From: Cryobacterium roopkundense
GTDB taxonomy: Bacteria; Actinomycetota; Actinomycetes; Actinomycetales; Microbacteriaceae
Assembly: GCF_014200405.1 (NCBI RefSeq)
Contig: NZ_JACHBQ010000001.1
Coordinates: forward strand, 2,728,001 to 2,792,000
Length of the DNA stretch: 64,000 nt
Reading direction: 5' to 3'
In this document: one piece after another, positions 958-19,197 of the stretch
Numbering within the stretch: the first letter of the stretch is position 1
How the letters are laid out: each line of letters starts with the position of its first letter
The notes under the pieces: generated by a model
What the model was told of the DNA's origin: nothing
The model's input: the letters and a program-made list of their open reading frames with translations, nothing else
Databases searched by the model: none
Program-made: the position numbers and the translations under genes

Positions 958-1006
958 CTCGCTGGTCGAGCAGCGCCGTCTACGGCGCGTGTCGAGACCC
1001 CGCACG
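958..1006. repeat. Interspersed palindromic repeat, copy 1
   Basis: A roughly 49-bp unit of the form GCTGGTCGAG, CGCCGTCTACGGCG, GTCGAGACCCCGC. It contains the inner palindrome CGCCGTCTACGGCG and outer arms GGTCGAG and GTCGAGACC. A close relative is found at 58017-58066. This copy sits between the convergent MarR and MFS genes, where it could act as a bidirectional terminator or a REP-like element. Confidence 0.7.
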
Positions 1007-1013
1007 CCAATCC

Positions 1014-2219: not shown

Positions 2220-2292
2220 GCTCACACCCTAGCTGCGCCCTCCATCTGCCCAGCGTCGGGGCCGCACTCGGTGCCATCGCTGTTCCCGGCAC

Positions 2293-2380
2293 ATAGCTCC
2301 TGCAGATTCTGGGCTGGCCACTAATCGGTCCCGGAATCACGCGGCCGTCTGGCCAGACCGTGCCGATCTGCAGGAGTTAT
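2293..2380. repeat. Long-spaced inverted repeat with 15-bp arms
   Basis: The arms ATAGCTCCTGCAGAT (2293-2307) and ATCTGCAGGAGTTAT (2366-2380) are complementary with one mismatch and lie 58 bp apart. They fill the intergenic space between the MFS gene start and the 3' end of the oxidoreductase gene. The role is unknown; a transcription terminator or the ends of a tiny non-autonomous element are possible. Confidence 0.6.
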
Positions 2381-2387
2381 GCGCGAG

Positions 2388-3440: not shown

Positions 3441-3685
3441 TCGTCAAGTCTGACCGCACCCGCAGAGAAAGCCAAAGGTTGGCCCGCACGGGAAGGCACA
3501 ACTGAGCATGCACCGATCAGGAGAACACCTACCCCGCCTCTGTGCCGACCGCCCCGGTGGCGATTTCAGAAGATCGGCCACGCCCGGGCGTAACTTCCGC
3601 ACTGGTCCGCGAGCTAGGGCATCCGCTCGGGCCGGATTTCCTGAATTCGCCACAGGAAGATCGCGCGAAGAATGCCGCGCGCGGG

Positions 3686-3862
3686 CTACTGCGGGCCGGC
3701 GTCGAGGGCCGCCTCGAGGCGCTCGACCTTGCCGGTGAGCTCACCGACGTGGCCGGGACGGATGTCGGCCTTCAGAACGAGGGAGACCCGCGGCCCGAAG
3801 GCACCGACTGCCTCGGTGGCCGCCTTGACCACGGCGAAGACCTCGTCCCAGTCGCCCTCGAT
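3686..3862 (-). pseudogene. Thiamine-binding protein (MTH1187 family), C-terminal half cut off by the island
   Basis: Read on the minus strand from the junction core, this frame gives 58 residues, beginning IEGDWDEVFAVVKAATEAVG and containing RVSLVLKADIRPG and VERLEAAL before a TAG stop. This is the second half of the small (about 100-residue) MTH1187/YqgV-type thiamine-binding protein. The first half is at 13236-13380 on the same strand. Joined at the shared ten-base core they give a 103-residue protein. This half has no start codon or promoter of its own and is presumably non-functional. Confidence 0.9.
3853..3862. other. Predicted left attachment site core (island/chromosome junction)
   Basis: The decamer CGCCCTCGAT occurs here and again at 13236-13245 in direct orientation, exactly where the two halves of the thiamine-binding gene break. 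Sequence to the left continues the native gene; to the right comes AGGGGTTAT (3872-3880), then the recombinase start. The decamer is taken as the crossover core of a serine recombinase. The exact crossover dinucleotide cannot be determined by eye. Confidence 0.8.
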
Positions 3863-3889
3863 GGTGAAGTTAGGGGTTATCGTAGGTTT

Positions 3890-5329
3890 ATGAGAGTTAT
3901 TGGCTACACCCGCCTGTCGAGGGCCTCCCGCGAGGAAAGCACGTCAATCGTGCGACAGCGCGAGATCATTCGGAAAACGTGCGACGCCCGCGAGTTCGAG
4001 CTTGTCGAGATTGTCGAGGACGTCGACGTCTCCGCAACACGCTCCCGACTGGACCGGCCCGGCCTCAACGAGGTCCGCCGACGCATAGCCGCAGGCGAGG
4101 CTGATGCCGTCATGGTCTGGCGACTGGACCGGCTGGTCCGCTCGGTCGTCGACGTTGGCGTATTGCTCGACGACGGCCTCCAGATTATCTCGGCGACGGA
4201 GAACCTAGACACGACCTCAATTATGGGTCGGGCGATGATCGAGATTCTTCAAGTGTTCGCGAGCATGGAAGCTAAAACAATAGGCATCCGCGTCTCGGCG
4301 TCCCAAGCGCACCTGCGGCAGATCGGTCGCTGGCCCGGTGGCGTCCGCCCCTACGGCTACCGTTCAGTGCTTCACCCCGACGGAGTGGGTCGGGCACTGG
4401 AGCCCGACCCCGACGAGTCCGCCATCGTCCGGCGAATGGCCGACGAGGTCCTCGGTGGGTCCTCCGTGTACGCCGTCGCTCAACGATTGAACATCGAGGG
4501 AATCGCTCCGCGCCGCTCGGCAACCTGGAGCCCCACGTCGATTCAGCGCATTCTCCGCTCCGACTCGGCTCTCGGGCGAGTGAAGATCAACGGCGAGCTA
4601 CTGCGCGACGATGTGGGCCTCCCCGTCACAGCCTGGACGCCGTTACTGGCTCTCAGCGAAGTCGAGCGCCTCCGCGAAATCACAGATTGGACCCCCACGC
4701 CGGGACGTTCCGCCGAAACAAAGGAGGGGCTTCGCAAGAGAGCCACGCGCCTACTATCTGGCCTACTCGCTTGCCCGGGCTGCGGCGGTCCCCTCGTCGT
4801 CAAAAGCCGCAAAGGTTCGACCGGCAAGCCAATCTATGCGTGCCAGGCCGCCGCCCGAGGCCAAGTCTGCTCGCGGGGCGTCGCCGTGGAGTGCGAGCGC
4901 GTCGAGGGCGAGGTCACGCGCCAGTTCCTCGCCGTCGTCGGCACCTTCGGAGTCGTCGAGGCTCGTTCCTCCATCCGCGAGGTTGCGGGCCTAGCGGGCG
5001 TCGAGGAAGCGATCAGAGATACAACCGAGCGCCTCCGCACGGCGGACGCCGACCTCCCAGTCCTATTCGAACGCCTGATGCTGCAACGTGCAGAGCGCGA
5101 GAGATTGGCAGCACTGCCCACGGAGCCAGTCGTCGAAATGGTAGACACTGGCGAGACCTTCGCCGAAGCATGGGCGCGCGAGGACATCACTGGTCGGCGG
5201 CGGGTTCTTCGCACCTCCGGCGTCGAGATCAATCTCGCCCCAGCCGCGCGCCGGGGCTATTGGGACCCGACGCGGGTAACCCTCGACTTCGCCGCCCAAG
5301 AGCGTGCTGCCGCCGAACGTGAACACTAG
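3890..5329 (+). CDS. Large serine recombinase (probable island integrase)
   Basis: A 479-residue site-specific recombinase. The resolvase catalytic domain (residues 1-145) begins GYTRLSRAS with nucleophile Ser10 and carries the arginine motif WRLDRLVRS (about 77-85). A recombinase DNA-binding domain follows (about 150-270, with GGVRPYGYR), then a zinc ribbon with Cys295, Cys298, Cys318 and Cys327, and a charged C-terminal helical part (about 360-420). The frame is open upstream to 3542, but that part is antisense to the native thiamine-binding gene, so the ATG 27 bp inside the junction core is chosen. Its position beside the left junction strongly suggests it integrated the island. A related, dead fragment exists at 11571-11693. 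Confidence 0.9.
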   Translation: MRVIGYTRLSRASREESTSIVRQREIIRKTCDAREFELVEIVEDVDVSATRSRLDRPGLNEVRRRIAAGEADAVMVWRLDRLVRSVVDVGVLLDDGLQIISATENLDTTSIMGRAMIEILQVFASMEAKTIGIRVSASQAHLRQIGRWPGGVRPYGYRSVLHPDGVGRALEPDPDESAIVRRMADEVLGGSSVYAVAQRLNIEGIAPRRSATWSPTSIQRILRSDSALGRVKINGELLRDDVGLPVTAWTPLLALSEVERLREITDWTPTPGRSAETKEGLRKRATRLLSGLLACPGCGGPLVVKSRKGSTGKPIYACQAAARGQVCSRGVAVECERVEGEVTRQFLAVVGTFGVVEARSSIREVAGLAGVEEAIRDTTERLRTADADLPVLFERLMLQRAERERLAALPTEPVVEMVDTGETFAEAWAREDITGRRRVLRTSGVEINLAPAARRGYWDPTRVTLDFAAQERAAAEREH

Positions 5330-5516
5330 GCAGACCTGCGCAGGAGGCTAAGCGCCCCAACGCGCCCACGAAGAACCTCTCCATGCCCCCACAAGGCCTC
5401 ACTGGGGTCGTAAAGCGATGTTTGGCCCTACACGGCACTCATGCATGTTTGAGCGACGAATGCGCCCATTGCCTGCGTGTGACCCCTCAAGCACAGAGCG
5501 ACGCCGGTGACGCCGA
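5330..5516. other. Non-coding stretch downstream of the recombinase
   Basis: No supported gene is visible between the recombinase stop and the nested dyad. Close to the dyad the short phrase CCGGTGACG appears twice (near 5504 and 5517). With the dyad and its right flank, the non-coding interval runs from 5330 to 5684. Confidence 0.5.
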
Positions 5517-5624
5517 CCGGTGACGAAGTGACGGAACTTGCGTCACTTCCCTATTCCAGTATAAAGAGCTCTCTCTCTTCTAAAGAATAGTGAAGTGACG
5601 TTAGAACCGTCACTTCGTCACCGG
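5517..5624. repeat. Nested inverted repeat (18-bp perfect outer arms, 15-bp inner arms)
   Basis: The outer arms CCGGTGACGAAGTGACGG (5517-5534) and CCGTCACTTCGTCACCGG (5607-5624) are perfectly complementary. Inner arms at 5541-5555 and 5586-5600 are complementary with one mismatch. The octamer GAAGTGAC or its complement occurs four times. The centre is AT-rich with GAGCTC and a CT run. The structure lies in a non-coding part of the island and could be a protein-binding region, an origin for an excised circle, or a regulatory dyad. No direct functional evidence exists in the sequence. Confidence 0.85.
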
Positions 5625-5684
5625 AATGCACCCGAGCGCCCACGAGGCATGCGGCGAGCGCCGCCGCTCGAGCCCAGTGCGCGT

Positions 5685-6401
<717 letters not shown>

Positions 6402-6504
6402 CTATCGAACCGCCAAGGCCGGGTGTTCCGGTGCCAAGTCGCTTGCACGCTTCGTCTTGGCCGTACAGGTTTGCTTGCAAAGGTGTACGGCTTAAGATTG
6501 TGGC

Positions 6505-7185
6505 ATGACGAAAACGCCCGATCCCGCCCCTCTCGCGCTGCTCTACGTTCGGGTATCGACTGGTCGACAAGCGAAGACCGGGCACAGCGTCGACAGCCAG
6601 CCCATCATCCTGCGAACCGCCGCCGAGAAGGCCGGATACGTCGTCGAAGTCATCACGGAAACCGGATCAGGGCGCAATGCGGCACGCCCGGCGCTCGCCG
6701 AAGCCATGAGCCGCCTCAAGTCTGGCAAGGCTCAGGCTCTCTACGCCGTCGATATCGACCGGCTCGCCCGAAGCACTCAGCATCTTCTTGAAATCGCTAC
6801 CGCGTCGACCAAACAGGGGTGGCGGCTCGTGGTCACTACAACGGACGTGGATACCTCGACCCCCGCTGGAGTCATGTTCTTCACCATGTGCGCCGCGTTC
6901 GCCCAGTACGAGTCCGGCATGATTTCGCAGCGCGTGAAGCGCCAACACGAGGCGCGCCGAGACCGGGGCGTCGTCTGGGGCAAGGACGAGGGTCGGCGTT
7001 CGGCGCTACCCGCCGCGACCGTGGCACGCATTCTCAGCCTCCGCGCCGAGGGTCGGACCTTGCAAGCAATCGCCGACACGCTCACCGGTGAAAACGTGTC
7101 CACGGCGGCGGGTGGCAAGTGGTATCCCTCAACCGTCGCCAAGACCTTGAACAGCCCGGCCAACCGCCCGACTCTCGCCGCCTGA
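6505..7185 (+). CDS. Small serine recombinase (resolvase/invertase family)
   Basis: A 226-residue protein with a complete resolvase domain: LLYVRVSTGRQ with nucleophile Ser18, the arginine motif YAVDIDRLARS (about residues 75-85), and a long helix ending near FAQYESGMISQRVKRQHEAR (about 130-150). The C-terminal part (about 165-215) has a helix-turn-helix-like stretch (ATVARILSLRAEGRTLQAIA). It lacks the zinc ribbon of the large recombinase at 3890. It could resolve element dimers, invert a segment or act as a second integrase. It starts 112 bp from the divergent lipoprotein gene, and the IS21 element inserted 66 bp beyond its stop. Confidence 0.88.
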   Translation: MTKTPDPAPLALLYVRVSTGRQAKTGHSVDSQPIILRTAAEKAGYVVEVITETGSGRNAARPALAEAMSRLKSGKAQALYAVDIDRLARSTQHLLEIATASTKQGWRLVVTTTDVDTSTPAGVMFFTMCAAFAQYESGMISQRVKRQHEARRDRGVVWGKDEGRRSALPAATVARILSLRAEGRTLQAIADTLTGENVSTAAGGKWYPSTVAKTLNSPANRPTLAA

Positions 7186-7510
7186 CCCTGTGGCGTTGCT
7201 GCGCTCGCCGTGGCCTTGCGTTGGAGGGGTGGGGAGGCACCCCCGGGGTGGTGTGTGTGATCAACTCTTTGTAGGCCGTTTCGGCGCTGGAATCCTGCCA
7301 AGTTAGCGGCTGGTTTCCTGCCAAAAGAGCGCTAAGAATCAGGCCAGGCAATTCCCCGCCAAGACGTTGGTTTGGGGAATGCGCCGAGACAGTGATCACC
7401 GGTGGCCGAGGCCCTTCTCCCGTGCGCGGAGACATGGGCCCGCCACCCCAGATATGTTCCTTACGGCGTAGCTACTGCCAAGCGGTCGCGCCGGAAGGAA
7501 CAGAAAGCAG

Positions 7511-9004
7511 ATGACGGTACCCATGTCCGTGCAAGAAAATATCAGAACTCTCGACTCCCACGGAATCGCGGGCCGAGAGATCGCCCGCCGACTGGGCGTC
7601 AGCCGCGACGCGGTAACGAAATACACCGGCCAGCTGGACTACTCGCCCAAGCCACCGTCGCCGGTGCCTCGGCCGGCCGGGTCGGTGTTGACAGGGTTCG
7701 AAGACACCATTGAGTTGTGGTTGGGCGAGGACCAGCGCCGGCCGCGCAAGCAACGCCACACGGCCAAGCGCGTCTTTGACCGCCTCGTCGTCGAGCAGGG
7801 CTACTTCGGCAGTTATTCGCCGGTGCAACGCTTCGTCGCTAAATGGAAGACCCGCCACCGCCAGGCCGGGGAGGGATTCACCGAACTGGTCTGGCCGGCC
7901 GGCACGGCGCAGGTCGATTTTGGGCAGGCCGAGGCCATCATCGCGGGGGTCCGGCAGGTCCTACATATCTTCGTCGTCACGTTCCCGTTCTCGAACATGC
8001 GCTTCGTGCAGGCTTACCGGGGCGAAACATCCGAGTGTGTCTGCCACGGCCTGCGGACTGTGTTTGATCACATCGGTGCGGCACCTCGGCACTTGGTCTT
8101 TGACAACGCGACCGGGATCGGGCGGAGAGTGGGGGCCAAGGTCGTCGAGACGAAACTGTTCAGCGCATTCAAACTGCATTACCGCTCGGAGTCTCGGTAC
8201 TGCAACCCGTACTCCGGCAATGAGAAAGGCAACGTGGAGAACGCGGTCGGGTTCCTCCGCCGGAACCTGATGGTCCCCGAGCCGGAGGCGGCCACGTTGC
8301 AGGGCCTCAACGACGTGTTGTTGGCGCGGTGCCTGGCGTTGGCTTCGACGGTGCACTATCGCAAGGGCCTGCCCGTGGGTGAGCTCTTTACCCAGGACGT
8401 CGCCGCGAGTCTCGCGCTGCCCGGGGTCGGGTTTGACCCGGTGCGTTATGAGTCCCGCACCGCCGACAAGACCGGGAACCTCCTCATCGACGGGAACACC
8501 TATGCGGCCGGGTCTTCCTTCCATAGCCGCACCCTGACAGTGGGGTTACGACACGATGTGGTCGAGATCCTCGATGAGCAGGCCACGCCGGTGCGGTCAT
8601 TCCCTCGGGCGTTCGGACGACAGACCGAGACGATCTTCGAACCCGCGTCGCTGCTGCCGTTGCTGGTGACCAAGCCCGGCGCTTGGGGTCACTCCCAACT
8701 GCGCCCCCTGGTCCCAGATCCGGTGCGGCAGTGGCTCGATACGGCCACCGCCACCAACCGGCGGCGACTCCTCAGCGCCGTGGATGCCGCCAGCGGTTCG
8801 GCCGGTTTCGACGCCGCAATCGGCGCCGCCGACATGCTGATCCAGCGTGGGGACACCCCCGATATCGCCGCGCTGAGCATGCTCGCCCGGCGCCTCGCCG
8901 ACGGCACGGCCCCGGCGGCGGAGAACGTGGACCTTAGCGTTTATGACATCTTCACCGCCGACGCCTTCACCACCGTGAACACGCTGACAGGAGAGATCGC
9001 ATGA
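7511..9004 (+). CDS. istA: IS21-family transposase IstA
   Basis: A 497-residue transposase. The N-terminus has a helix-turn-helix (IAGREIARRLGVSRDAVTKY, about residues 19-38). The catalytic DDE core is visible as AQVDFGQAE, LVFDNATG and NEKGNVEN, spanning about residues 135-245, and the length is typical of IstA. The C-terminal part is presumably used for contacts with IstB and the element ends. The gene overlaps istB by four bases (ATGA), the usual coupling in this family. A second ATG at 7523 is an alternative start. Confidence 0.95.
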   Translation: MTVPMSVQENIRTLDSHGIAGREIARRLGVSRDAVTKYTGQLDYSPKPPSPVPRPAGSVLTGFEDTIELWLGEDQRRPRKQRHTAKRVFDRLVVEQGYFGSYSPVQRFVAKWKTRHRQAGEGFTELVWPAGTAQVDFGQAEAIIAGVRQVLHIFVVTFPFSNMRFVQAYRGETSECVCHGLRTVFDHIGAAPRHLVFDNATGIGRRVGAKVVETKLFSAFKLHYRSESRYCNPYSGNEKGNVENAVGFLRRNLMVPEPEAATLQGLNDVLLARCLALASTVHYRKGLPVGELFTQDVAASLALPGVGFDPVRYESRTADKTGNLLIDGNTYAAGSSFHSRTLTVGLRHDVVEILDEQATPVRSFPRAFGRQTETIFEPASLLPLLVTKPGAWGHSQLRPLVPDPVRQWLDTATATNRRRLLSAVDAASGSAGFDAAIGAADMLIQRGDTPDIAALSMLARRLADGTAPAAENVDLSVYDIFTADAFTTVNTLTGEIA

Positions 9005-9732
9005 GCCTGATCACCGTTCAAAACATCATCGAGACCGGCCGGCAGGCCTCCCTGACCAATACCGTGCTGGCCGAGTGGGCCGAGAAAGGCACCCCGAAGC
9101 AACGCGAATACCTGCACGGAATGCTCACGGCCGAGCACGAATCCCGCCAAGCATCTCGCCGCCAACGACTGCTGACAGCGGCCCGGTTGCCGGCGTTGAA
9201 GTCACTCACGGGTTTTGACTACTCGAGCGTGAAGTTCCCCGAGGACTACGGCCGTGACGAGCTGACCTCGCTGGATTTCATCGACCGGGCCGAGGACCTT
9301 GTCTTCTACGGTGACGTCGGCACCGGGAAAACCCACCTCGCCAGCGCGCTGGTCGCCGCCGCCTGCCGCGAGGGAATCCCGGCACGTTTCTTCACCACCT
9401 CGTCGCTGGTGATGCAGCTGCGCCGCGCCAAAGACGAAGGGCGCCTCGATCGGGAGCTGGCCTCCATAGCCAAAAATCGGCTCGTGGTGATTGACGAATT
9501 TGGCTACTTACCAATCGATACCGAAGGCGCCCGGCTCCTGTTCCAGGTCATTGCGGACGGTTATGAAAAAAGAAGCCTGGCCATAACCACAAATTTGGAA
9601 TTCTCCCGCTGGGGAACCGTGTTCGGCGACGACAACATGGCCGCTGCCGTCATCGACCGCATCGTGCACCACGGCCGGCTCCTGCAATTTCGTGGCGAGT
9701 CCTACCGAGTTAAACACGCCCTCATGAAATAA
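9001..9732 (+). CDS. istB: IS21-family helper ATPase IstB
   Basis: A 243-residue DnaA/DnaC-like AAA+ ATPase that assists IstA in target choice and transposition. The Walker A motif is GDVGTGKTHL (about residues 103-112) and Walker B is VIDEFGYL (about 163-170). The preceding helical stretch and the segment ITTNLEFSRWGTVFGDD are typical of IstB. Its start overlaps the stop of istA. The right end of the IS lies about 160 bp downstream. Confidence 0.95.
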   Translation: MSLITVQNIIETGRQASLTNTVLAEWAEKGTPKQREYLHGMLTAEHESRQASRRQRLLTAARLPALKSLTGFDYSSVKFPEDYGRDELTSLDFIDRAEDLVFYGDVGTGKTHLASALVAAACREGIPARFFTTSSLVMQLRRAKDEGRLDRELASIAKNRLVVIDEFGYLPIDTEGARLLFQVIADGYEKRSLAITTNLEFSRWGTVFGDDNMAAAVIDRIVHHGRLLQFRGESYRVKHALMK

Positions 9733-9890
9733 CCCCCGCACCACCCCAGCCGACGGCCGCGCTGGCCGAGAATGCTGGAACGACGCCGAAAACCGGCCAT
9801 TCTGACCACCGTGCTCAACTGGCCGGAAACCACGCCGCACTGGCAGGTTTTTAATCGCTCAAATGGCCGGCTTCAAGTTGACAAAACACA

Positions 9891-10113
9891 GGTGGGGAGT
9901 CTTCTCGTACCGAGGCGGCAGGGCGTCTCGCTGTGCGCGTGAGTCTGGAGGCTTGGGTCGTTCACGTCCGGCGTTGGGCTCCGCAACCTGCAATCCCTCC
10001 TGCCCGAGCCAAGCGCGCCGAAATGGACCAACGGTTCCACGACGTCGCCAATTTCATCGCCCATTCGCACGACGCCCCCACCGCTGAGCCACCGTTGAGC
10101 ATGAGAGGCACTA
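9891..10113. other. Spacer between IS21 and the TIR-like gene
   Basis: Together with the IS right end (9733-9890) this gives 381 bp without a confident gene. A plus-strand frame from GTG 9933 encodes protein-like residues (RAEMDQRFHDVANFIAHSHD) up to about 10100 before running out of frame over the TIR-like gene. It could be a frameshifted upstream extension of that gene or chance. AGAGG at 10104-10108 is the likely ribosome binding site for the TTG start at 10114. Confidence 0.4.
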
Positions 10114-11139
10114 TTGGAAGAGTCCGAAGTCCGCAAGCGATACGCTCCGAACATGGGCAAACTCAGCGCGAATCTATTTGGCATCAGGCTAGACGACACG
10201 ATCGTCTCGCGCATGAAAGCCCTTCTGGAGAACGTAGTCCTCACAGAAGTGCAAAAAATGGATATTCCAACGGGCCGCGCGTGGGTTGAAACAACCGCTG
10301 AAGGGTGGCGGGAGTACTACTCGCTTATGGCTGACCGACTTGAGTCAATCCTCGAGAATGGATCGGCAAAGGGCACCATCCGCGCGGAGGTATCCCAGCA
10401 AACTCTGCACGGCCGAACATGGTCTGCTGGGCCTGCGAATCCCCATCTTGATTGGCGGACACCTAGGCCCGACGCCAATCTCGACAAGTTCTCACCGGAT
10501 TACGAAGGAATCACATTCGAGTTCGCGGAAAATGGCTTCATCATAAATCTAGGCATGAGGAATAGAACCGGTATCGTCGGCCCCGTCACTCTGACTTCGA
10601 CTAGTGGAGGCCTGACACAGATCGTTATCGACGATCCCGACAATAACAGCGAAGCGATCCTGTCCGCGGTCGAAGAGCTTGTGCTGAGCTATCGCGTCCC
10701 GGAAGCCCCACCAGAGCCAGCGTCGTTCAGGGTCTTTATGGGTCATGGTGGGGATACCCAATGGAAGACCCTCAAGCTGGCTTTGGAAGCCACTCACGGT
10801 TTCGCCGTCGAGGCCTTCGAGTCAGAGGACCGAACATCGACGGCCACAGTGGACACCGTCGTCAACATGATTAGGTCAGCCAACGCCGCAGTAGTTGTGA
10901 TGACTGGAGCCGACACCATGCTCGACGGAACCGTCCGAGCTCGTGAGAATGTCATCCACGAACTTGGCCTTTGCCAGGGAATTCTTGGCGTCCACAGCAC
11001 CATCATCGTCTTGGAAAATGGCGTCACGGAGTTATCCAACATCGCCGGAATAACGCAAGTCCGATTCCCGAAGAACGACGTCATGAGTTCGGCACTTGCT
11101 GTCGCGGGAGCTCTTGAAAATCGAAAGAGAAACGCCTGA
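10114..11139 (+). CDS. TIR-like nucleotide-binding domain protein (PF10137 type), candidate defence effector
   Basis: A 341-residue protein. The C-terminal part (about residues 204-322) matches the TIR-like predicted nucleotide-binding domain: FRVFMGHGGD at the first strand, AAVVVMTGAD in the middle and RARENVIHELGLCQGILG (275-292), where Glu283 sits at the position expected of the catalytic acid. Related domains act as NADases in CBASS (Cap12-like) and similar abortive-infection systems. The first 200 residues are not recognised and may sense or oligomerise. The TTG start is supported by AGAGG upstream and by in-frame stops just before it; ATG 10153 is the alternative. No cyclase partner gene lies beside it. 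Confidence 0.75.
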   Translation: MEESEVRKRYAPNMGKLSANLFGIRLDDTIVSRMKALLENVVLTEVQKMDIPTGRAWVETTAEGWREYYSLMADRLESILENGSAKGTIRAEVSQQTLHGRTWSAGPANPHLDWRTPRPDANLDKFSPDYEGITFEFAENGFIINLGMRNRTGIVGPVTLTSTSGGLTQIVIDDPDNNSEAILSAVEELVLSYRVPEAPPEPASFRVFMGHGGDTQWKTLKLALEATHGFAVEAFESEDRTSTATVDTVVNMIRSANAAVVVMTGADTMLDGTVRARENVIHELGLCQGILGVHSTIIVLENGVTELSNIAGITQVRFPKNDVMSSALAVAGALENRKRNA

Positions 11140-11232
11140 CCTGATCACGCCCGCTGCCGCTATCGGCCGCGTCCCCCCGAGACGCCACCGCGGCGCTAAG
11201 TGGCGAGCGCGAAACACGGGCAGAATGGGCAC

Positions 11233-11538
11233 ATGCTAGTAGCCTTCTCAGTTGCCCCCAGCGGTACCGGACGCGTCGACGGCTCCGTTCACGATGCCGT
11301 TGCCGCCGCCGTGCGCATTGTTCGAGAGTCCGGTCTCCCCAACCATACAGACTCGATGTTTACGACCATCGAGGGCGACTGGCCCGAAGTGTTCGAGGTC
11401 ATCCGGCGGGCGACCGAAGCCGTCGGCGAGTACGGCTCGCGGGTCTCGCTTGTACTGAAAGCCGACATTCGACCGGGCTTCTCAGGGGAAATGAACGGGA
11501 AGATTGAACGCCTAGAGCAGGCTCTCGGCGACAACTAG
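11233..11538 (+). CDS. Thiamine-binding protein (MTH1187 family), intact island-borne copy of the disrupted gene
   Basis: A complete 101-residue protein beginning [11 protein letters not shown], with the family core [20 protein letters not shown] (about residues 35-54) and VSLVLKADIRPGFSGEMNGK. These proteins form small tetramers and bind thiamine or a related compound in the cytosol. The same protein, at about two-thirds identity, is encoded by the split native gene at 13380-13236 and 3862-3686. The copy lies on the opposite strand to the native gene, is diverged in DNA, and keeps the ten-base core ATCGAGGGCG (11368-11377). It probably replaces the function lost on integration. No strong ribosome binding site precedes the ATG. 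Confidence 0.9.
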   Translation: MLVAFSVAPSGTGRVDGSVHDAVAAAVRIVRESGLPNHTDSMFTTIEGDWPEVFEVIRRATEAVGEYGSRVSLVLKADIRPGFSGEMNGKIERLEQALGDN

Positions 11539-11544
11539 CTTGTT

Positions 11545-11571
11545 TACACGCCTGAGCGCACAATAACCCCT
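11545..11571. other. Possible former recombinase arm site after the intact gene copy
   Basis: ATAACCCCT at 11563-11571 is the exact complement of AGGGGTTAT beside the left junction (3872-3880), and a weaker relative with CCCCT lies at 13214-13222 beside the right junction. The preceding phrase GTTTACACG is shared with the right end (13196-13204). It is interpreted as the arm of an old attachment site whose core has been lost. Confidence 0.5.
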
Positions 11572-11693
11572 GGCAGTGCGGGTGCGAATCGCCGCAGGCG
11601 AGGCAGACGCCGCCATGGTGTGGCGCCGAACTAACAACGTGCAGTCCGCCGTCGACGTCGAAACCCTCCCTGACGACGGTATTGCTTTTCGCA
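11571..11693 (+). pseudogene. Remnant of a second large serine recombinase
   Basis: The plus strand encodes RIAAGEADAAMVWRRTNNVQ and SAVDVETLPDDGI, which line up with residues 62-99 of the intact recombinase at 3890 (RIAAGEADAVMVWRLDRLVR, SVVDVGVLLDDG). DNA similarity is obvious across about 110 bp. The catalytic RLDRL motif has become RRTNN and both the nucleophile region and the C-terminal domains are missing, so the fragment cannot be active. It directly follows the intact thiamine-binding copy and an arm-like motif. Confidence 0.85.
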
Positions 11694-11760
11694 GAGACGG
11701 CGAGCCCCCATCGTTTCGATCTGGCACGTGATCGAACGCGCGAGAGACTGACGTCGGCGG

Positions 11761-11928
11761 CTACTCGTCCTGGTTCGAGGCGCTATCCGATGCGCCGGAC
11801 GCCCCCGAGGGACCAGTCTGAGGCTCAGAGACAAAATTCATCGGGACAGCACTCTCGCGAATTTCACGTTGGATACCCGCGCTTCCGAGCAGAACCTTTT
11901 CGTCTGCCTTGTCGACTTGTTCACTCAT
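11761..11928 (-). CDS. Small acidic protein of 55 residues, unknown function
   Basis: An open frame starting ATG with AGGAG eight bases upstream, reading MSEQVDKADEKVLLG and ending in a Ser/Ala/Gly-rich tail (SGASGASDSASNQDE). There is no membrane segment or recognised domain. It begins 19 bp after the stop of the DUF6338-like membrane protein on the same strand, so [13 protein letters not shown] or co-transcription is likely. The good ribosome binding site and spacing support a real gene; composition alone cannot give a function. It might be a small partner or antitoxin-like regulator of its neighbour, but this is inference. Confidence 0.55.
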   Translation of the reverse strand: MSEQVDKADEKVLLGSAGIQREIRESAVPMNFVSEPQTGPSGASGASDSASNQDE

Positions 11929-11947
11929 TATTTGCTCCTATCGCTCG

Positions 11948-12625
11948 TTACTTTGGAACGCCGATCCACTCGACGACGCATTTGTCCGATATTGAAACCC
12001 AGAGACCCTGCGAATTCTCCAGCTTGCTGAGGAACTCACCTTTCGCGCCCATGCGCCATTGTGACTCGATGAAGATATCGCGAGGTTGTGGGTATGTCGA
12101 CATCAACGACTTTCGGGAGTACCAGCCGCCGTAGTAGACGCCGTTCTCCAGACGAACGCGAACGAATCGGCCACTCCCCATCGTCAACGCATTGTTATCC
12201 CAGGCAGAAGGCACCGATCGAAAGTTGCTCAGCAGGACCACTTTCTTGCGCTGCTTTCCCTTATTCGTCGTTCTTTGGGTTCCGTCCGATTCCGTGCTTG
12301 AGGCGACCCGCAGCGAGAGTAAAACTGGGACCAGTGCAGGCACACCGACAAGAAGCCCTAATGCCAGCAGAGTCGGCCAGAAGGGCTCGCTGAGGAGTTG
12401 CGCACCGCTGTCTTGAAAAGACTCAACTACTAAGCGACCGAAAACAAGTAGATAAACTGCGTCGAACAGTACGCCTACGAAGAGTGCCTCGAGTATCCGC
12501 GCACCGGCACTCGTGTCCACGGCCCGGTGGCCACGCAACGCAACTCTGACTGTCCCGAAAGCGATGCCTGGAACAATAAAGAATACGAAGAGGGACAGCT
12601 GAGCAAGTGACTCCGGAACTGTCAA
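11948..12625 (-). CDS. DUF6338-like membrane protein (island cargo)
   Basis: A 225-residue protein. Hydrophobic helices at about residues 5-27 (LAQLSLFVFFIVPGIAFG), 43-65 and 82-105 form an N-terminal membrane part. After a Lys/Thr-rich linker (TTNKGKQRKK) comes a cytosolic beta-rich end with RFVRVRLENGVYYGGWYS and a final strand VVEWIGVP. This layout fits the DUF6338 family, whose function is unknown. The start is TTG, directly after an in-frame stop, and the first helix requires it; the binding site GGTGAAG is weak. It follows a 92-residue frame by 32 bp and precedes a 55-residue gene by 19 bp. Confidence 0.7.
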   Translation of the reverse strand: MTVPESLAQLSLFVFFIVPGIAFGTVRVALRGHRAVDTSAGARILEALFVGVLFDAVYLLVFGRLVVESFQDSGAQLLSEPFWPTLLALGLLVGVPALVPVLLSLRVASSTESDGTQRTTNKGKQRKKVVLLSNFRSVPSAWDNNALTMGSGRFVRVRLENGVYYGGWYSRKSLMSTYPQPRDIFIESQWRMGAKGEFLSKLENSQGLWVSISDKCVVEWIGVPK

Positions 12626-12657
12626 TCTTCACCGTCCCACTCTGGGGAACGAGTATT

Positions 12658-12936
12658 TCACGCGAGCGGGCCGACCGCGGTAGACCACCCGTCGCTCGAG
12701 TTCCCTCTCCACGCCGCGGACCCGCGATACCCAACGCCCACTCCGTTGAGCCTCGGGCCAACGTGATCTAGCCCTGCGGCGAGTCTTTCGCTCTGATTGT
12801 AAAAGTCAGAGAACGGCGGTAAAACCCATCTCCACAACTCGCTCCCACTTGAATCGAAGATGCGCAGCTCCCAGTCACCTAGAGTGCTTTTCTTGGTCAC
12901 GGTAGCTCGCACCGCGTTCGGATAACTCATGCCCAT
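12658..12936 (-). CDS. Hypothetical protein of 92 residues
   Basis: The minus-strand frame begins MGMSYPNAVRATVTKKSTLG and contains an alternating aromatic pattern (WELRIFDSSGSELWRWVLPP) suggestive of beta strands, then AAGLDHVGPRLNGVGVGYRG. No family is recognised and no ribosome binding site is obvious. It is first in a possible three-gene group with the DUF6338-like gene (32 bp downstream) and the 55-residue gene. The aromatic and glycine spacing looks like a real protein, but chance remains possible in high-GC DNA. Confidence 0.5.
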   Translation of the reverse strand: MGMSYPNAVRATVTKKSTLGDWELRIFDSSGSELWRWVLPPFSDFYNQSERLAAGLDHVGPRLNGVGVGYRGSAAWRGNSSDGWSTAVGPLA

Positions 12937-13030
12937 ACGCAGAGCGTACCGGCACGGGCCAGCGTTGTCCTCCCTTTCAACTCATGGGTGGTTCATCTCC
13001 CGTTCCCTCTCTACCCTGGCCTTGACCCCG

Positions 13031-13192
13031 GAGAGAGTGGACCCGGGTAAAGGCCATCCAACGGGCGACCCAAGACATCGTCGAGTATGGCTCGCGGTCT
13101 CGCTGGTACTCAAGGCCGATATTCGACGGGACTTCTCGGGGGAAATGACCGGGAGGTTGAACGCCTAGAGCGGGCTCGGGGCGACAACTAGA
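13031..13192 (+). pseudogene. Decayed C-terminal copy of the thiamine-binding protein gene
   Basis: DNA here is plainly similar to the intact copy at 11371-11538: the shared phrases include the run [10 protein letters not shown] SLVLKADIR, GGGGAAATGA, TTGAACGCCTAGAGC and GGCGACAACTAG. A one-base loss in the CGCGG/CGCGGG stretch shifts the frame and there is no 5' part. Similarity continues past the stop into GTTTACACG and CCCCT, so flanking DNA was duplicated as well. The fragment begins about where the core lies in the target gene and ends about 45 bp before the right junction. Confidence 0.8.
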
Positions 13193-13235
13193 GCGTTTAC
13201 ACGGCTCAGGGCTATGTCCCCTAGCGGTACTTATG

Positions 13236-13245
13236 CGCCCTCGAT
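13236..13245. other. Predicted right attachment site core (island/chromosome junction)
   Basis: A second direct copy of CGCCCTCGAT. To its right the native thiamine-binding gene continues (complement reads into SMFTTIEG); to its left lies island DNA with the arm-like CCCCT at 13218-13222. It pairs with the copy at 3853-3862. Confidence 0.8.
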
Positions 13246-13380
13246 CGTGGTGAACATGGAGTCGGTGTGGTTGGGCAGGCCGGAGTCGCGCACCACCTTG
13301 ACGGCGGCGGCCACGGCGTTGTGCACGGAGCCGGCGTCGTCCTGCGCGCCGGAGGGGGCAACCGAGAATGCAACGAGCAT
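13236..13380 (-). pseudogene. Thiamine-binding protein (MTH1187 family), N-terminal half cut off by the island
   Basis: The first 48 residues of the native gene: [17 protein letters not shown] through [16 protein letters not shown], reading leftwards from ATG 13380 with AGGAG eight bases upstream. The frame then leaves the native gene at the junction core. It begins eight bases after the stop of the GT87-like gene on the same strand, so the native gene was second in that operon. The rest of the protein lies at 3686-3862. The truncated product would lack half the fold. Confidence 0.9.
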
Positions 13381-13388
13381 GAGAACTC

Positions 13389-14612
13389 CTAGGTCTGAAG
13401 CGAATTGGTCAGCGAACGTTCGCCCCTGCGATCGTACGACCACAGCTCACGCACCGCCCAGCCGAGCAGCACGAATTCCAGAAGGTTGCGCACTGAGAGT
13501 ACGAATACGAGCGTGGGATCGGCCACGAGCAGCCAATCATAGAAATACGGGTAGACCAGTTGGGTCAGGGCTGCGATCACGAGCGCGAGCGTCGCGGGCG
13601 TACGCCACGCCGCACCGTGCCAGACGAGTCCGAGGATGATCGGTGCCGCAAGCCAGGCCATGAACTGCGGCGAGCCCACCTTATTGAAGGCGATGAGAGT
13701 CACGGTGAGTGCGAGTACGAGCGGCGGGAACACCGTGACAAACGCCGCGCCCGCCCGCGTCGCCCGCGCGCCCAGCAGCACCACGCAGATCGCCATGAGC
13801 GCCATCAGCGGTGTCATGAGAGCGCTCGCGACGTCGACTCCGGGGCCGGCCACCTGAAAAGTCAGAATGTCCCTGTCGTAGTAGAGCGAACTGGCGGGCA
13901 CCCGCAACGCGGTGAGCCACATCCAGAATCCGGCCACCGGCGCCTCGATCTGGATTCCGCGCGCGGTCTGCGCCGTCACGAAGCTGACGACGTTGCGACC
14001 GCTGCCGAGAACCAGGGCGACCACGACGATGCCGAGGCTGATCGCGGAGGCGAGCAGCAGCATCCGCCAGCGCTGCGGCCACACCACAAAAAGCGCGGCA
14101 ATCACGGCGGCGGGCCAGATTTTCACCCAGGTGGCGAGAACAAGCAGCGCCGTTCCCCAGAACGGCCGACTGCCGAGCCACAGCAGGCCGATGATCGTCA
14201 CCGGCACCGTGATGGAATCGATGCGAGCGAGCGCGATCGGTCCGAGCAGAAGTTGGAACAGCAGCCACCACCACGCGACGCGAACGCGATGCGGGTGCAG
14301 TCCGCGCACAAGCATGAAGAATGCTGCCGCGTCGCACAGGGTCACGAGCAGAAACCACGTGTACAGATACAGCGCATCGCCGAGCGCGAGGGCGGCGCTG
14401 ATCGGCAGCATGGCGAGAATCGGGTACACGAAGGGGGCATCGATTCCCACAATCGTTCCGTTGCGCAGTCCGTCGGCCCAGCCGCGATACACCACGGCCA
14501 CGTCGCCGAGCGGGTTTCCGGGCCCATACAGCGCAAGCAGCACGATGACGACGTGAACCAGGACGAACGCGCCCCACAGCAGGGGCGCTCGCTGGGAGGG
14601 GGGTCGTGACAC
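13389..14612 (-). CDS. GT87/DUF2029-type membrane glycosyltransferase
   Basis: A 407-residue multi-pass membrane protein with about ten hydrophobic helices. The first external loop reads [17 protein letters not shown], placing an aspartate soon after helix 1, as in polyprenol-phosphate-mannose-dependent mannosyltransferases of family GT87. Later parts ([31 protein letters not shown]) also fit the family. The frame is open further upstream, but the GTG at 14612, giving [10 protein letters not shown] before the first helix, is the sensible start. It probably adds a sugar to a cell-envelope glycolipid or glycan at the outer membrane face. It was followed by the thiamine-binding gene in one operon before the island inserted. 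Confidence 0.75.
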
Positions 14613-14647
14613 GTGCTTACTGTAGCCGCACAGCGCCCCCGCGAGGC

Positions 14648-15529
14648 CTAGTGCTTGCCCTCCGCCGCAACCGCAAGCAGTGCCCGCATCACGGTGGGCA
14701 CGGCTTCTGCCACGTCGAGCGCGGTGATCGGCCCGCCGGCGGATGCGAGTTCCGCCGCGCGGGCATGCACAAGCGCCGCGGTCGCGGCGAGGGCCGCGAG
14801 GGCGTCGGTATCCGTTTCGATGCGGGCGGAGTTCGTGGCCAGCAGGGCGCCGAGGATACCCCCGAGCACGTCCCCGGAACCGGCCGTCGACAGCCACGCC
14901 GGAGAGCCGGAGACCGTGAGCCTGGCTCCGGTAGGAGACGCGATGCGCGTGACGCTGCCCTTGAGCAGCACCGTGACGCCGAGCAGGCGCGCGGCGCGAA
15001 CGGCGGCCTCGGCAGGAGCGGCCGCGATCTGCTCCGCGGTGGTCTGTTTGGCCTTCGGCAGGCCGTTCAGCAGGGCCGCGAGTTCACGGTAGTGCGGGGT
15101 GATCACGACCTGGCTGGCGGCCTCCGCTTCAGGCAGGCGCAGCCTGTCAAGCACCCCGGCGTCGCAGACCGTTGGCAGGCCCGCGGCGAGCGCCTCGTCA
15201 AGCTCGCGCGTCACCTCGGCCCCGCGCGTGGCTGCGTTGATTCCGGACCCGAGCAGCCAGGCCTGTACCCGACCGGACACCAGCACGACTTCGGGGCGGC
15301 GCTGCAGCACGAGCGTGCCCGCCCTGCCAGGACCGAGGTAGCGCACCATGCCCACCCCCGTGCGGGCCGCGGCCTCGACGCCGAGCACGGCCGCACCGGG
15401 GTAATCCTTCGATCCGGTCATCACTCCGAGCACGCCGCGGGTGTACTTGTCGTCCGCCGGTCCCGGCACGCGGATCCACCCGCGCGCCTGCTCGGTGTTC
15501 CATTCCAGCCATCCCCGGGGTTTTGCCAT
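14648..15529 (-). CDS. nnrD: ADP-dependent (S)-NAD(P)H-hydrate dehydratase
   Basis: The enzyme repairs damaged NADH or NADPH by removing water from its hydrate at the expense of ADP. The 293-residue ribokinase-like fold shows GVLGVMTGSKDYPGAAVLG near residue 35, the substrate motif VITPHYRELAALL and the phosphate-binding motif STAGSGDVLGGILGALLA (about residues 215-232). The epimerase domain found in the longer two-domain forms is absent. ATG 15529 (MAKPRGWLEW) is chosen over an upstream start at 15571, which would run towards the divergent gene. It lies just downstream of the GT87 gene start region and is divergent from the Old Yellow Enzyme gene. Confidence 0.9.
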   Translation of the reverse strand: MAKPRGWLEWNTEQARGWIRVPGPADDKYTRGVLGVMTGSKDYPGAAVLGVEAAARTGVGMVRYLGPGRAGTLVLQRRPEVVLVSGRVQAWLLGSGINAATRGAEVTRELDEALAAGLPTVCDAGVLDRLRLPEAEAASQVVITPHYRELAALLNGLPKAKQTTAEQIAAAPAEAAVRAARLLGVTVLLKGSVTRIASPTGARLTVSGSPAWLSTAGSGDVLGGILGALLATNSARIETDTDALAALAATAALVHARAAELASAGGPITALDVAEAVPTVMRALLAVAAEGKH

Positions 15530-15594
15530 GTGCCCACGATAGATTGTTTCCATCAAAGTCGATGAACCCATTTGTTCACACCCGGGGGAAACAC

Positions 15595-16689
15595 GTGTCC
15601 GCTCTCTTCGAACCTCTCACCGTGCGCGGGGTCACCATGCGCAACCGCCTCTGGGCGGCTCCCATGTGCCAGTACGCCATCGAGAACCGCGACGGCGCTC
15701 CCGCTGACTGGCACCTGATGCATCTGGGCTCCCTCGCCACGGGAGGCGCCGGCCTCGTGATCGCCGAAGCGACCGCGGTGAGCCCCGAAGGGCGCATCTC
15801 CGACAAAGACACCGGCCTCTGGAATGACGAGCAGGGCGAAGCCTGGGCGCACATCGTCGAATTCATGCACACTCAGGGTGTGCGCGCGGGCATCCAGCTC
15901 TCCCACGCCGGCCGCAAAGCATCCGTCTGGCCCGCCTGGGGCACCGACCGACGCGGCACCATGTCGCCGGTCGACGGCGGGTGGCCCACCCTATCGGCTT
16001 CGGCCCTTCCCTTCACCGGTTACGCCACCCCCACCGCCCTCGGCTTCTCGGGCATCAAGCAGGTCGTCGCCGACTTCCGGGCAGCCGCACGCCGGGCCGT
16101 CGACGCCGGCTTCGACGTGATCGAGATCCACGGCGCCCACGGATACCTCGTGCACCAATTTCTCTCGCCGCTGAGCAACCAGCGCACCGACGAATTCGGC
16201 GGGTCGCTCGAAAACCGCGCGCGCCTGCTCATCCGCATCATCGTGGCCGTGCGGCAGGAGATCGGCGAGGAGCGGGCGCTCTTCGTGCGATTCTCTGCCA
16301 CGGACTATGCAGCGGGCGGCTGGGACGAAGAACAAACAGCCACTGTCGCGGGTTGGGCCGCCGCCGCCGGGGCCGACTTCTTCGACATCTCGACCGGAGG
16401 CAATGTGGCAGGCGCGACCATTCCGCTCTCGCCCGGCTATCAGGTGCCGTTCGCGCGCTTTGTGAAGGAGCAAGCGGATGTAGCGGTCAGCGCCGTCGGG
16501 CTCATCACGTCTGCGGAGCAGGCGGAACAGATCGTGGCCTCCGGCAGCGCCGACGCCGTCATGCTCGCGCGCGAACTGATGCGCAACCCGCGTTTCCCGC
16601 TGCAGGCCGCGCACGAGCTCGGCGTCGACCTCGACTACTGGCCGCCACAGTACGCCCGCGCCCGCTGGCCCGCCGAGCCGGTGCGCTAG
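15595..16689 (+). CDS. Old Yellow Enzyme family NADH:flavin oxidoreductase (YqjM-like)
   Basis: A 364-residue FMN enzyme with a TIM barrel that reduces activated C=C bonds using NADPH. The family marks are clear: LFEPLTVRGVTMRNRLWAAP at the N-terminus with MCQY just after it (the Cys that tunes FMN in the YqjM class), HGAHGYLVHQFLSP with the two substrate-binding histidines preceding, and the final strand DAVMLARELMRNPRFPL. The GTG start at 15595 is chosen with GGGGGA upstream; the frame is open 24 codons earlier. The natural substrate is unknown. It is transcribed away from nnrD. Confidence 0.9.
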   Translation: MSALFEPLTVRGVTMRNRLWAAPMCQYAIENRDGAPADWHLMHLGSLATGGAGLVIAEATAVSPEGRISDKDTGLWNDEQGEAWAHIVEFMHTQGVRAGIQLSHAGRKASVWPAWGTDRRGTMSPVDGGWPTLSASALPFTGYATPTALGFSGIKQVVADFRAAARRAVDAGFDVIEIHGAHGYLVHQFLSPLSNQRTDEFGGSLENRARLLIRIIVAVRQEIGEERALFVRFSATDYAAGGWDEEQTATVAGWAAAAGADFFDISTGGNVAGATIPLSPGYQVPFARFVKEQADVAVSAVGLITSAEQAEQIVASGSADAVMLARELMRNPRFPLQAAHELGVDLDYWPPQYARARWPAEPVR

Positions 16690-16699
16690 ACGCGGCACG

Positions 16700-17737
16700 T
16701 CAGTCGCGGCGGGTGGCGTCCTGCACTTCGCCCACGAGCTCCTCGATGATGTCCTCGAGAAAGAGCACCCCGGTGGTCTCACCCAGTTCGGTGAACGACC
16801 GGGAGAGGTGCGCGCCCGAGCGGCGCATGGTCGCGAGAGCGTCTTCCAGGTCGGTCTCTTCAAAGATCGACACCAGCTGACGGATGCGCTTGCCGGGAAT
16901 CGGGTCTTTGTACACCTCGGATTCCAGGTCGAGCACATCCTTCAGGTGCACGTAACCGGTGGGATCGCCAGCCTCGTTCACGAGCACGAACCGCGAGAAT
17001 CCGTGACGCGTCACGGCTTTCTCCACGTCCGCGGGCGTCGCCGTCTCCGGCAAGCTGATGATGCCGGCCATCGGCACGGCCACGTCTCTCACCTTGCGGG
17101 TGGTGAATTCGAAGGTCGCGGTGAGGGCGCCGGTGCCGTCGAAGAGCACACCCTCCTTGGTGGACTGCGTGATGATCGTGGCGACCTCATCGAGTGTGTA
17201 CGTGCTCGTGGCCTCATTTTTGGGCTGCACGCCGAACAGCCGCAGCACGCCGTTGGCGGTGGCGTTGAGCGCCACGATCACCGGCGAGAAGATGCGGCCT
17301 ATGAACACGAGCGGCGGGGCCAGGATCAGCACCGCCTGGTCGGGAACGGAGAACGACAGGTTCTTCGGCACCATTTCGCCGAACACCACGTGCAGGTACG
17401 ACACGAGCACGAGGGCAATGAGGAATGCAATCGTGCTGATGACCTCCGGCGAGAGCCCGGTGAGCCCCAGGGGGACCTCGAGCAGGTGGTGAATCGCCGG
17501 CTCCGAAACGTTCAGGATGAGCAGTGAGCACACCGTAATGCCCAACTGCGTGGTGGCGAGCATGAGCGTGGCGTGTTCCATCGCCCACAACGCCGTCTTG
17601 GCACTGCGTTTGCCCGCTTCCGCGAGCGGTTCGATCTGCGAGCGTCGCGCGGAGATCACGGCGAATTCGGCGCCCACGAAGAAGGCGTTGGCGGCGAGAA
17701 GCACCACGAGCCAGGCTATTCCTGCCCAATCACTCAT
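16700..17737 (-). CDS. CNNM/CBS-domain membrane protein (hemolysin-C-like), short paralogue
   Basis: A 345-residue member of the CNNM/CorC-like family, implicated in magnesium or cobalt transport and resistance. The DUF21 membrane domain (about residues 1-180) has [19 protein letters not shown] and [12 protein letters not shown] and the signature [15 protein letters not shown]. Two CBS repeats follow (about 200-330; [11 protein letters not shown] and [17 protein letters not shown]). The C-terminal CorC_HlyC domain of the longer paralogue is missing. It overlaps the end of the upstream paralogue by four bases, so the two are one operon and may form a complex. Confidence 0.88.
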
Positions 17738-19080
17738 GGTTTCTTCACCTCGCTCGTCATGTCGGTTTCAGTATCGGTTTCGGTCTCCGGGGTGAATCTC
17801 AGCCGATCGATACGCCGCCCGTCCAGTCGTTCCACGCGCAGGGTGCCCCCGTCGATCGGCACAGTGTCTCCCACCGCTGGCAGGCGTCCGAGCTCGCTCA
17901 TCACGAATCCGGCCACGGTTTCGAACGGTCCGTCATCGGGCACCCGCAGCCCTGCCCGCTCGAGCAGTTCGTCGGGCCGAAGCATTCCGGGAAAGGTCAG
18001 CGAATCCGGGGACCGCACAACGCCCGCGCGGGTGCGGTCGTGTTCGTCGGCCACCTCGCCCACGATCTCCTCCACGAGGTCTTCGAGAGTGGCCACGCCC
18101 GCCGTTCCACCGTATTCATCCACGACAATGGCCATCTGGTAGCCGCGGCCGCGCAGTTCGCTGAGCAGGCCGTCGAGTTTCATGGTTTCGGGAACCCGAA
18201 CGGCCTCGGTTTGCAGTCCCGAGACCGGCACGGTGGCGCGGCGATTGCGCGGCACGGCCACGGCCTGTTTGACGTGCACGATACCCACGACATCGTCGGC
18301 GCTCTCGTCGATCACCGGAAAACGGGAGTAGCCGGTCTGGCGGGTGAGGTCGATTACGGCCTGGGCGGATGCCGTTCGCGAGATGACGGCCACACGCGGG
18401 CGGGGCGTCATGACGTCGGAGGCGGTGTGGCCCGAGAACAGCAGCGTGCGGTGCAGCAGCGTCGCGGTGTCTTTTTCCAGCAAGCCGGCGCTGGCCGAAC
18501 GCCGCACGAGCGAGGACAACTCCTCGGCGGAGCGGGCCCCCGAGAGCTCTTCCTTGGGTTCGATGCCCATTGCACGCAGCAGCCCGTTCGCGCTCCCGTT
18601 GAGCACGAGAACGGCGGGCTTGAACACCATCGTGAACACGGTCTGGGCCGGAATCACAAGCTTCGCGGTCTGCACCGGCAGCGCGAGGGCGAAATTCTTC
18701 GGCACGAGCTCGCCGATGATCATCGACAGCAGGGTAGCCACCACCACGGCGGCGGTCGTGGCGATCGCCGGAACAGCGGATGCCGGCAGCCCGGCACTCG
18801 TGAGCGGCCCTGTCAGCAGCGTGGTGATCGCCGGCTGCATGGTGTACCCGGTGAGCAGGGTGGTGAGGGTGATGCCGAGCTGTGCGCTCGACAGGTGCGT
18901 CGACGTGATCTTGAGCGCCGAGATGGTGAGGCCGAGGCGGGTCTCGCCGCGATCCCGGCGAGCCTCGAGTTCCGTACGGTCGAGGTTGACCAGGGCAAAC
19001 TCACTTGCCACGAACAGTCCGGTGCCAATGGTCAGCAGCAGGCCGAACCCGAGCATGACCCACTCAAACATGGCCACCAC
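17734..19080 (-). CDS. CNNM/CBS-domain membrane protein with CorC_HlyC domain, long paralogue
   Basis: A 448-residue protein of the same family as its downstream neighbour. The DUF21 membrane part (about residues 1-190) shows [20 protein letters not shown] and [18 protein letters not shown]. The CBS pair lies at about 215-330 ([44 protein letters not shown]) and a CorC_HlyC domain at about 350-430 ([20 protein letters not shown]). This is the full-length form. The frame starts with GTG 19080; ATG 19071 is also possible. It is first in a two-gene operon and its stop overlaps the next start. Confidence 0.9.
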
Positions 19081-19197
19081 CGGCGTTCAGCAGGGCTAGC
19101 GGCGAACGTTTATGACTGCGTGATTGTGCCGTTGGGGGGTCGTCCATTATTCCTCCCACTATAGCGGAAGGCCCTGCACCGAGCGGGTGCGGCGCAC

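Follow-up and report, generated by a model that had tools for sequence, protein, structure and literature searches.

The 64,000-nucleotide stretch of the Cryobacterium roopkundense genome analysed here (the window) very probably harbors a member of a family of mobile elements that target the gene for a PF01910 protein, in which integration destroys the gene and a diverged copy carried by the element replaces it, mostly in line with the host promoter and inverted in Cryobacterium. According to the scheme we propose, serine-integrase elements, comprising temperate phages and small islands, would have their attB at two codons, for E and G, that are conserved in the PF01910 gene of actinobacteria. 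Integration would break this native gene, and the element would supply a complete, diverged replacement. In four of six integrants the copy is oriented on the same strand downstream of the truncated host gene, as it would be in the carrier phages once integrated; in three integrants, and in the phages by prediction, the host open reading frame crosses the attR arm and stops on or beside the ATG of the copy. Both Cryobacterium islands, that of the window and that of strain PH31-L1, have an inverted copy and an immediate stop in the arm, so that another promoter would be needed. Binding of thiamine, or of a precursor, by the PF01910 protein is a putative function taken from the family annotation.

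In the window, an island of 9.4 kb with a serine integrase separates the halves of the native gene (Table 1). The two junctions have a 10-bp repeat in common, CGCCCTCGAT, at positions 3853 and 13236, and some 30 bp of island sequence separate the left junction from the start of the integrase gene. With its N-terminal Resolvase domain followed by Recombinase and zinc-ribbon domains, a short core, an element lying between the target halves and attP beside the integrase gene, the island has the features of large serine recombinase elements; its active integration and excision are putative. Positions 3700–7183 are 93% identical to the island of Cryobacterium sp. PH31-L1 (L054), and past this stretch from the integrase to the resolvase the cargo of the two islands differs. 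No phage structural domains were found in a Pfam scan of the eight proteins of the window island. The first gene of the IS21-type pair shows a weak match to a Mu-transposase C-terminal domain, below the cut-off, and is called istA after its neighbor istB. TIR-domain genes occur in the cargo of the window, adjoining the PF01910 copy, and of L055 (13335–14306, a weak TIR_2 match below the cut-off), suggesting defence cargo. Between the integrase and DUF2511 genes lies an inverted repeat of about 108 bp (5517–5624; 78% self-complementary), matched also in L054 (11423–11528) and L055 (11479–11580), which may serve the islands as an origin or control site.

Table 1. Features of the PF01910-splitting island and its target gene in the window
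Feature	Position	Strand	Basis
Native PF01910 gene, 3' part	3686..3859	-	profile 30-91, E 4.2e-12
Left junction core GCCCTC (GAGGGC in gene direction)	3854..3859		shared repeat; same core in phage attP
Large serine integrase, 479 aa	3890..5329	+	Resolvase, Recombinase and Zn ribbon domains
DUF2511 protein, island backbone	5685..6392	-	Pfam scan; within stretch shared with L054
Second, short serine recombinase, resolvase type, island backbone	6505..7185	+	Pfam scan; also in L054
IS21-type pair (istA 7511-9004, istB 9001-9732)	7511..9732	+	istB PF01695 E 1.2e-64
Cargo gene, CAP12/Pycsar TIR domain, putative defence	10114..11139	+	PF10137 E 1.3e-19
Intact carried copy of target gene, PF01910	11233..11538	+	open 101-aa frame, full-profile match
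Second integrase gene remnant (older tandem island)	11576..11683	+	67% over 36 aa to integrase residues 62-97, E 3e-10
DUF6338 protein	11948..12625	-	PF19865 E 2.8e-43
Decayed 3' end of second carried PF01910 copy, next to attR	13051..13193	+	83% nucleotide identity to 11396-11559
Right junction core	13237..13242		shared repeat
Native PF01910 gene, 5' part with native start codon	13243..13380	-	profile 1-45, E 2.7e-9

An earlier note, made from the sequence alone, had claimed that the island carries an intact, diverged 101-residue homologue of the very gene it splits. This claim is confirmed. The copy has an open frame and matches PF01910 over its whole length in two profile searches (E 7.6e-26 and 1.4e-26), scoring 92.7 bits against a curated cut-off of 24.9, which places it in the family, and both native halves lie on the minus strand. 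A profile search of the genome found PF01910 matches at three places, all within the window. When rejoined, the native halves give a clean frame of 103 residues; as they stand, the frame of the 5' part closes with GAG GGC GCA TAA at the junction. Over the 48 N-terminal residues of the native protein, the copy shows 81% identity, and comparison with the rejoined native gene gives a dN/dS of 0.17 at a dS of about 1.2, indicating an old divergent homologue rather than a recent duplicate. Between 10900 and 11600, no sigma-70-like promoter was found near the copy (0.1 expected), and its homology to the L054 copy begins only about 23 bp upstream of the ATG. No riboswitch scored above Rfam thresholds near the native or carried gene in positions 1–20000, where the search returned only a tRNA.

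The integrase remnant at 11576–11683 and the copy remnant at 13051–13193 show that the window holds two islands in tandem. The copy remnant aligns over 164 bp with single-base gaps, is frameshifted, and occupies the junction-side place where relatives keep their copy. The gene for the DUF6338 protein is probably cargo of the older island, to which it is assigned by position. The intact copy lies 1.7 kb from the right junction because this second, decayed island intervenes. A position well away from the junction, which the earlier note had pointed out as unusual, holds for the window and not for the family: four of the five other integrants (L054, L055, L072, and L073) have their copy no more than about 50 bp from the split point, and in L103, the remaining one, a single cargo gene stands between the two.

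The arrangement recurs in six integrants, the window and five others from several genera of Microbacteriaceae, each with a split native PF01910 gene and an intact carried copy. All five integrants found via the integrase (at least 59% identity) have both: the window; L054 (genome G036, NZ_JASISM010000009.1); L055, a Curtobacterium MAG from a scan of GTDB contigs with integrase patterns that reaches close relatives only; and L072 and L073 (genomes G444 and G369), from an integrase search of 398 Microbacteriaceae genomes drawn. The sixth, L103 (genome G436), was found by the PF01910 search and not by its integrase, which has undergone a frame change and is cut to some 103 residues of its N terminus; its PF01910 copy is intact. 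The frameshift might be an assembly error, the genome being 90% complete; the loss of most of the integrase gene could not. Each of the five integrant genomes that were searched whole, a set with the L055 genome outside it, contains exactly one full PF01910 gene. On an IMG/VR contig, L082, an integrase of 64% identity adjoins a native 3' half, but the other end lies outside the contig and the case was left unscored. A draw of 396 genomes at the level of the order yielded, beyond the window genome, only four integrases, of 35–42% identity.

All 57 Cryobacterium genomes, that of the window included, contain PF01910; the split and the copy occur in two of them, the window genome and PH31-L1, and each of the other 55 has one match. 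These two genomes are also the only ones among the 57 with the integrase at 99–100% identity (99% in PH31-L1), and 16 further genomes have distant matches only. The earlier note had allowed that relatives might hold the copy at a fixed chromosomal place unrelated to any island. What we found is different: in G003 and G017, the two sister genomes opened, the sole PF01910 gene adjoins nnrD and a glycosyltransferase gene, which is the native locus and not the place of the island copy.

In a survey of the 398 Microbacteriaceae genomes at an E value threshold of 0.001, which would miss halves too short or too diverged, PF01910 was matched in 307 genomes and in two or more pieces in nine, all of which we opened. 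Match coverage is known among the matches listed, and a gene split with one half undetected looks like a single match in this survey. Five of the nine genomes have the split gene and an intact copy, and an insert-split gene without a copy occurred in none of the nine. The remaining four are of different kinds. G286 (L104) has a 5' half and a copy and no 3' half that we could find, and lies outside the six counted. G088 and G457 (86% and 89% complete) were rejected as splits, since they have one base fewer in the G run of the core and are likely assembly errors. G270 was not counted as an integrant: its PF01910 gene is intact at the native locus, and a similar, duplicated 3' half that begins with the att core follows some 0.7 kb further downstream (L105, 4316–4519 and 5157–5450), possibly the trace of a past integration.

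The same gene is found in phages. A tblastn search with the window integrase returned 48 phage records under 38 names, all Arthrobacter phages, with integrases 60–80% identical, those of Arthrobacter cluster AZ at about 66–71%. Eight of the 38 named phages carry the PF01910 gene (Asa16, Niobe, Elezi, Eraser, London, Iter, Ascela, and Nitro), and 30 have the related integrase without it. The eight carriers are close relatives and do not represent eight separate events. In every one of them, the gene lies 54–64 bp from the integrase gene and is divergent from it, with the attP core in between. When the copy itself was used as the tblastn query, ten records of the phage collection were returned, namely nine records of the eight Arthrobacter phages and MT835505.1 ("Bacteriophage sp.", faecal); the latter was dropped as a phage case, its neighbors looking chromosomal when the ORFs were inspected by eye. 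The gene is annotated as hypothetical in eight of the nine records and as a putative thiamine-binding protein in one Elezi record. The attP core, GAGGGC, predicts an attB in the PF01910 gene for most AZ phages read, noncarriers included, and the phages presumably use this site in their host. Their attB is not named in the London paper (PMC10652945) or in the portions available to us of PMC8758107 and PMC9119123; the portion of PMC8758107, which describes cluster AZ, mentions neither attP, attB, nor thiamine. After integration, the phage copy would follow the host 5' half directly and on the same strand, as in L055, L072, and L073. The cluster AZ phages (Azeevirinae) thus resemble the island in their related integrase, in an attP core that is identical in most, and, in eight of them, in PF01910 beside attP, but they are complete phages of about 42–46 kb, whereas the window island measures 9.4 kb and shows no phage structural domain among its eight scanned proteins.

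We followed the host frame across the core and on into the arm of the element, the phage cases being predictions from attP. In L055 and L073 the frame continues for 12 codons past the core and ends at the start of the copy, as TAATG and TGATG, respectively. In L072 it also runs for 12 codons, and in the sequence ATGCTAG the stop starts one base past the ATG of the copy; in all eight carrier phages the predicted frame of nine codons ends with ATGA at the copy start. A stop that overlaps or abuts the downstream start, as in coupled gene pairs, is therefore found in these three integrants and predicted for the eight phages. It is absent from the window and L054, where the copy is inverted and the frame stops one codon past the core, and the overlap is not exact in L104, with 14 codons and a stop 12 bp upstream of the ATG, or in L103, where by eye the frame stops after eight codons and a same-strand cargo gene precedes the copy. 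Past the core, the attR frame stops within 1–12 codons in the five tabulated integrants. In L103, the host 5' half, the cargo gene (5005–5940), and the copy share a strand, an arrangement that would suit joint expression of cargo and replacement from the host promoter.

Since the host ORF ends at the ATG of the copy, the host promoter would drive the replacement, probably with coupling. The random-arm chance of a stop between −2 and +4 of the ATG, a range chosen after a strict overlap test had missed L072, is 0.20 for the phages, 0.19 for L072, 0.019 for L055, and 0.018 for L073. Taken alone, the meeting of the frames stands out in L055 and L073, but not in L072 or the phages. The noncarriers provide a further comparison, based on 20 sequences (17 of the 30 named phages and three IMG/VR contigs, one equal in size to phage Yang). 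In 17 of the 20, the host frame stops after one codon; in Berrie it stays open for 21 codons without a gene; and in Liebe and MaGuCo the core is GGGGGC, which our script left unscored and which by eye is followed by GCG TGA. Among sequences with the GAGGGC core, the frame is open in eight of eight carriers and one of 18 noncarriers (Fisher 6e-6, ignoring kinship). Although the carriers are relatives, this contrast carries more weight than does any of the overlaps on its own. Wiring to the host promoter, which did not figure in the interpretation of the earlier note, is likely.

The carried copies evolve under purifying selection. The dN/dS between copies is 0.049 for the window and L054, 0.043 for L055 and L073, and 0.060 for the window and L072, and it is 0.19–0.23 for three pairs of phage copies (Niobe, Eraser, and London were left out of the dN/dS and codon tests and of the tree). 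Comparisons with the L103 and L104 copies give about 0.09–0.13 at dS values above 1.3, near saturation, and natives compared with natives give 0.14 and 0.25. The copy survives the loss of the integrase in L103, and in the window an older copy has decayed and the newer one is intact. Together, the six integrants, the gene at attP in phages with related integrases, and the purifying selection support the suggestion of the earlier note that islands combining PF01910 with a serine recombinase form a family. We infer that the carried gene is expressed, its product taking the place of the native protein, and it would thereby offset a putative cost of integration.

Alternatively, the copy could be ordinary passenger cargo that happens to be homologous to the target, the loss of the native gene being tolerated. 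We consider this improbable, even though 30 of the 38 phages with related integrases do without a copy, among them Powerpuff, for which stable lysogens are reported (in the part of PMC8758107 available to us). Provided that Powerpuff integrates at the attB proposed here, its host survives the disruption of the native gene, and these lysogens argue against a strict need for a substitute in that host. Furthermore, 91 of the 398 family genomes, some of them incomplete, have no PF01910 match at E 0.001, from which it follows that the gene is dispensable in some lineages. Passenger cargo would not, however, be expected in all six integrants in which both halves were found, nor beside the att site in eight carrier phages and four of the six integrants. 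In the one pair of islands compared, the window and L054, the cargo differs while the copy stays, and purifying selection on the copies likewise speaks for replacement of the native gene.

The copies also differ from the natives at the attB site. Immediately ahead of the core stands a Phe codon that reads TTT in 10 of 12 copies and in none of 33 natives (Fisher p 2e-8, ignoring relatedness), and the other Phe codons of the copies are TTT in 7 of 21 cases (p 0.01 against the attB codon). The 12 copies are seven chromosomal ones, L104 included, and those of five of the eight carrier phages; a fragment, L027, was left out of the codon counts and of the tree. In L055 and L073, the copy has an additional codon right after E-G, next to the crossover. 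Synonymous recoding over the whole attB window was also considered and showed no excess (20 of 42 codons versus 172 of 338 elsewhere); only the attB Phe codon stands out, and shared ancestry may explain part of this. In trees of 42 sequences, which do not include the later found L103 and L104, the ten copies fall into at least two groups, one of the window, L054, and L072 and another of L055 and L073 with the phages nearby; a single clade of all copies is not rejected (AU p 0.089 for protein and 0.093 for DNA). The recoded attB would fit a copy that escapes its own integrase, and recoding may well shield it.

Those same differences in attB positions, together with the codon inserted in L055 and L073, would also be expected if the copy chiefly benefited the element, restoring the function while removing attB and so excluding competitors with the same integrase. 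This is very improbable in our judgment: splitting the native gene removes attB by itself, as the noncarriers do likewise; the remains of two tandem elements in the window indicate that exclusion is not absolute; and the recoding is equally explained by avoidance of cutting by the element's own integrase. That a host paralogue predated the island, which then landed beside it, is next to excluded, as nothing was found in favor of it, the gene stands beside attP in free phage genomes, 55 of 57 Cryobacterium genomes have a single match, and the copy travels with the element across several genera.

Within the replacement of the target gene by a carried copy, a more specific mechanism has, in our estimate, an even chance of being correct: integration would switch on a promoterless spare through a coupled two-gene operon driven by the host promoter, and this spare, recoded at attB and so unrecognised by the integrase of the element, would become the host's only copy. 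If so, loss of the element would be costly, and the element would be stabilised after its integrase has decayed.

The attB sites of serine integrases often lie within protein genes, which are then described as disrupted. Other elements rebuild one end of the protein gene they enter, such as SXT at prfC, SCC at rlmH, and phage 21 or e14 at icd. A Bifidobacterium example is formed by the dnaJ2 prophages, whose att core restores the missing gene end (PMC6109161, seen in part). Such elements share with the PF01910 elements integration into a protein gene whose function is kept, presumably so in the PF01910 case. In the PF01910 elements, in contrast, neither junction restores the gene, the host frame stopping soon past the core, and a whole second gene is brought. 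Serine-integrase prophages disrupting an ORF at attB, Bxb1 at groEL1 and MabI and MabJ of M. abscessus (PMC8092301), are alike in having a serine integrase, a very short core, and an attB inside the disrupted protein gene; they differ in that no replacement gene is mentioned in the part of that paper available to us. For SpyCI islands in mutL of S. pyogenes, expression was rescued from island sequence in one strain, according to the accessible part of PMC3430984, the rescue coming from a cryptic promoter in a broken integrase gene as opposed to the spare gene of the PF01910 elements.

The closest precedent is tRNA-dependent lysogeny, in which the host gene entered by the phage is not rebuilt and the phage genome supplies the lost gene in full (Guerrero-Bustamante & Hatfull 2024, PMC10865867, available to us in part). 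Common to both is a complete substitute for a target that is not rebuilt, found here at the level of sequence in six of six integrants and eight of 38 phages. In that system the integrase is a tyrosine integrase, target and substitute are tRNA genes, and the requirement has been proven experimentally (PMC10865867, same part). The PF01910 elements, known from their genes, combine a serine integrase with a protein gene and a substitute beside attP, mostly in line with the host promoter; the window island, having neither a tRNA attB nor a tyrosine integrase, falls outside the definition of tRNA-dependent lysogeny, and the PF01910 elements are its protein-gene, serine-integrase version. We found no description in the open-access literature of a gene-splitting element that carries a whole replacement as here.

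Judged from their sequences, these elements would constitute a lineage in which some serine-integrase elements repay the disruption of their target with a whole gene, and, if this is true, tRNA-dependent lysogeny extends to protein genes. Others might be found by searching for integrase-bearing elements that, in addition, encode a homologue of the gene they split. Carriers and noncarriers that share one integrase would form a natural set for measuring the fitness cost of target disruption.
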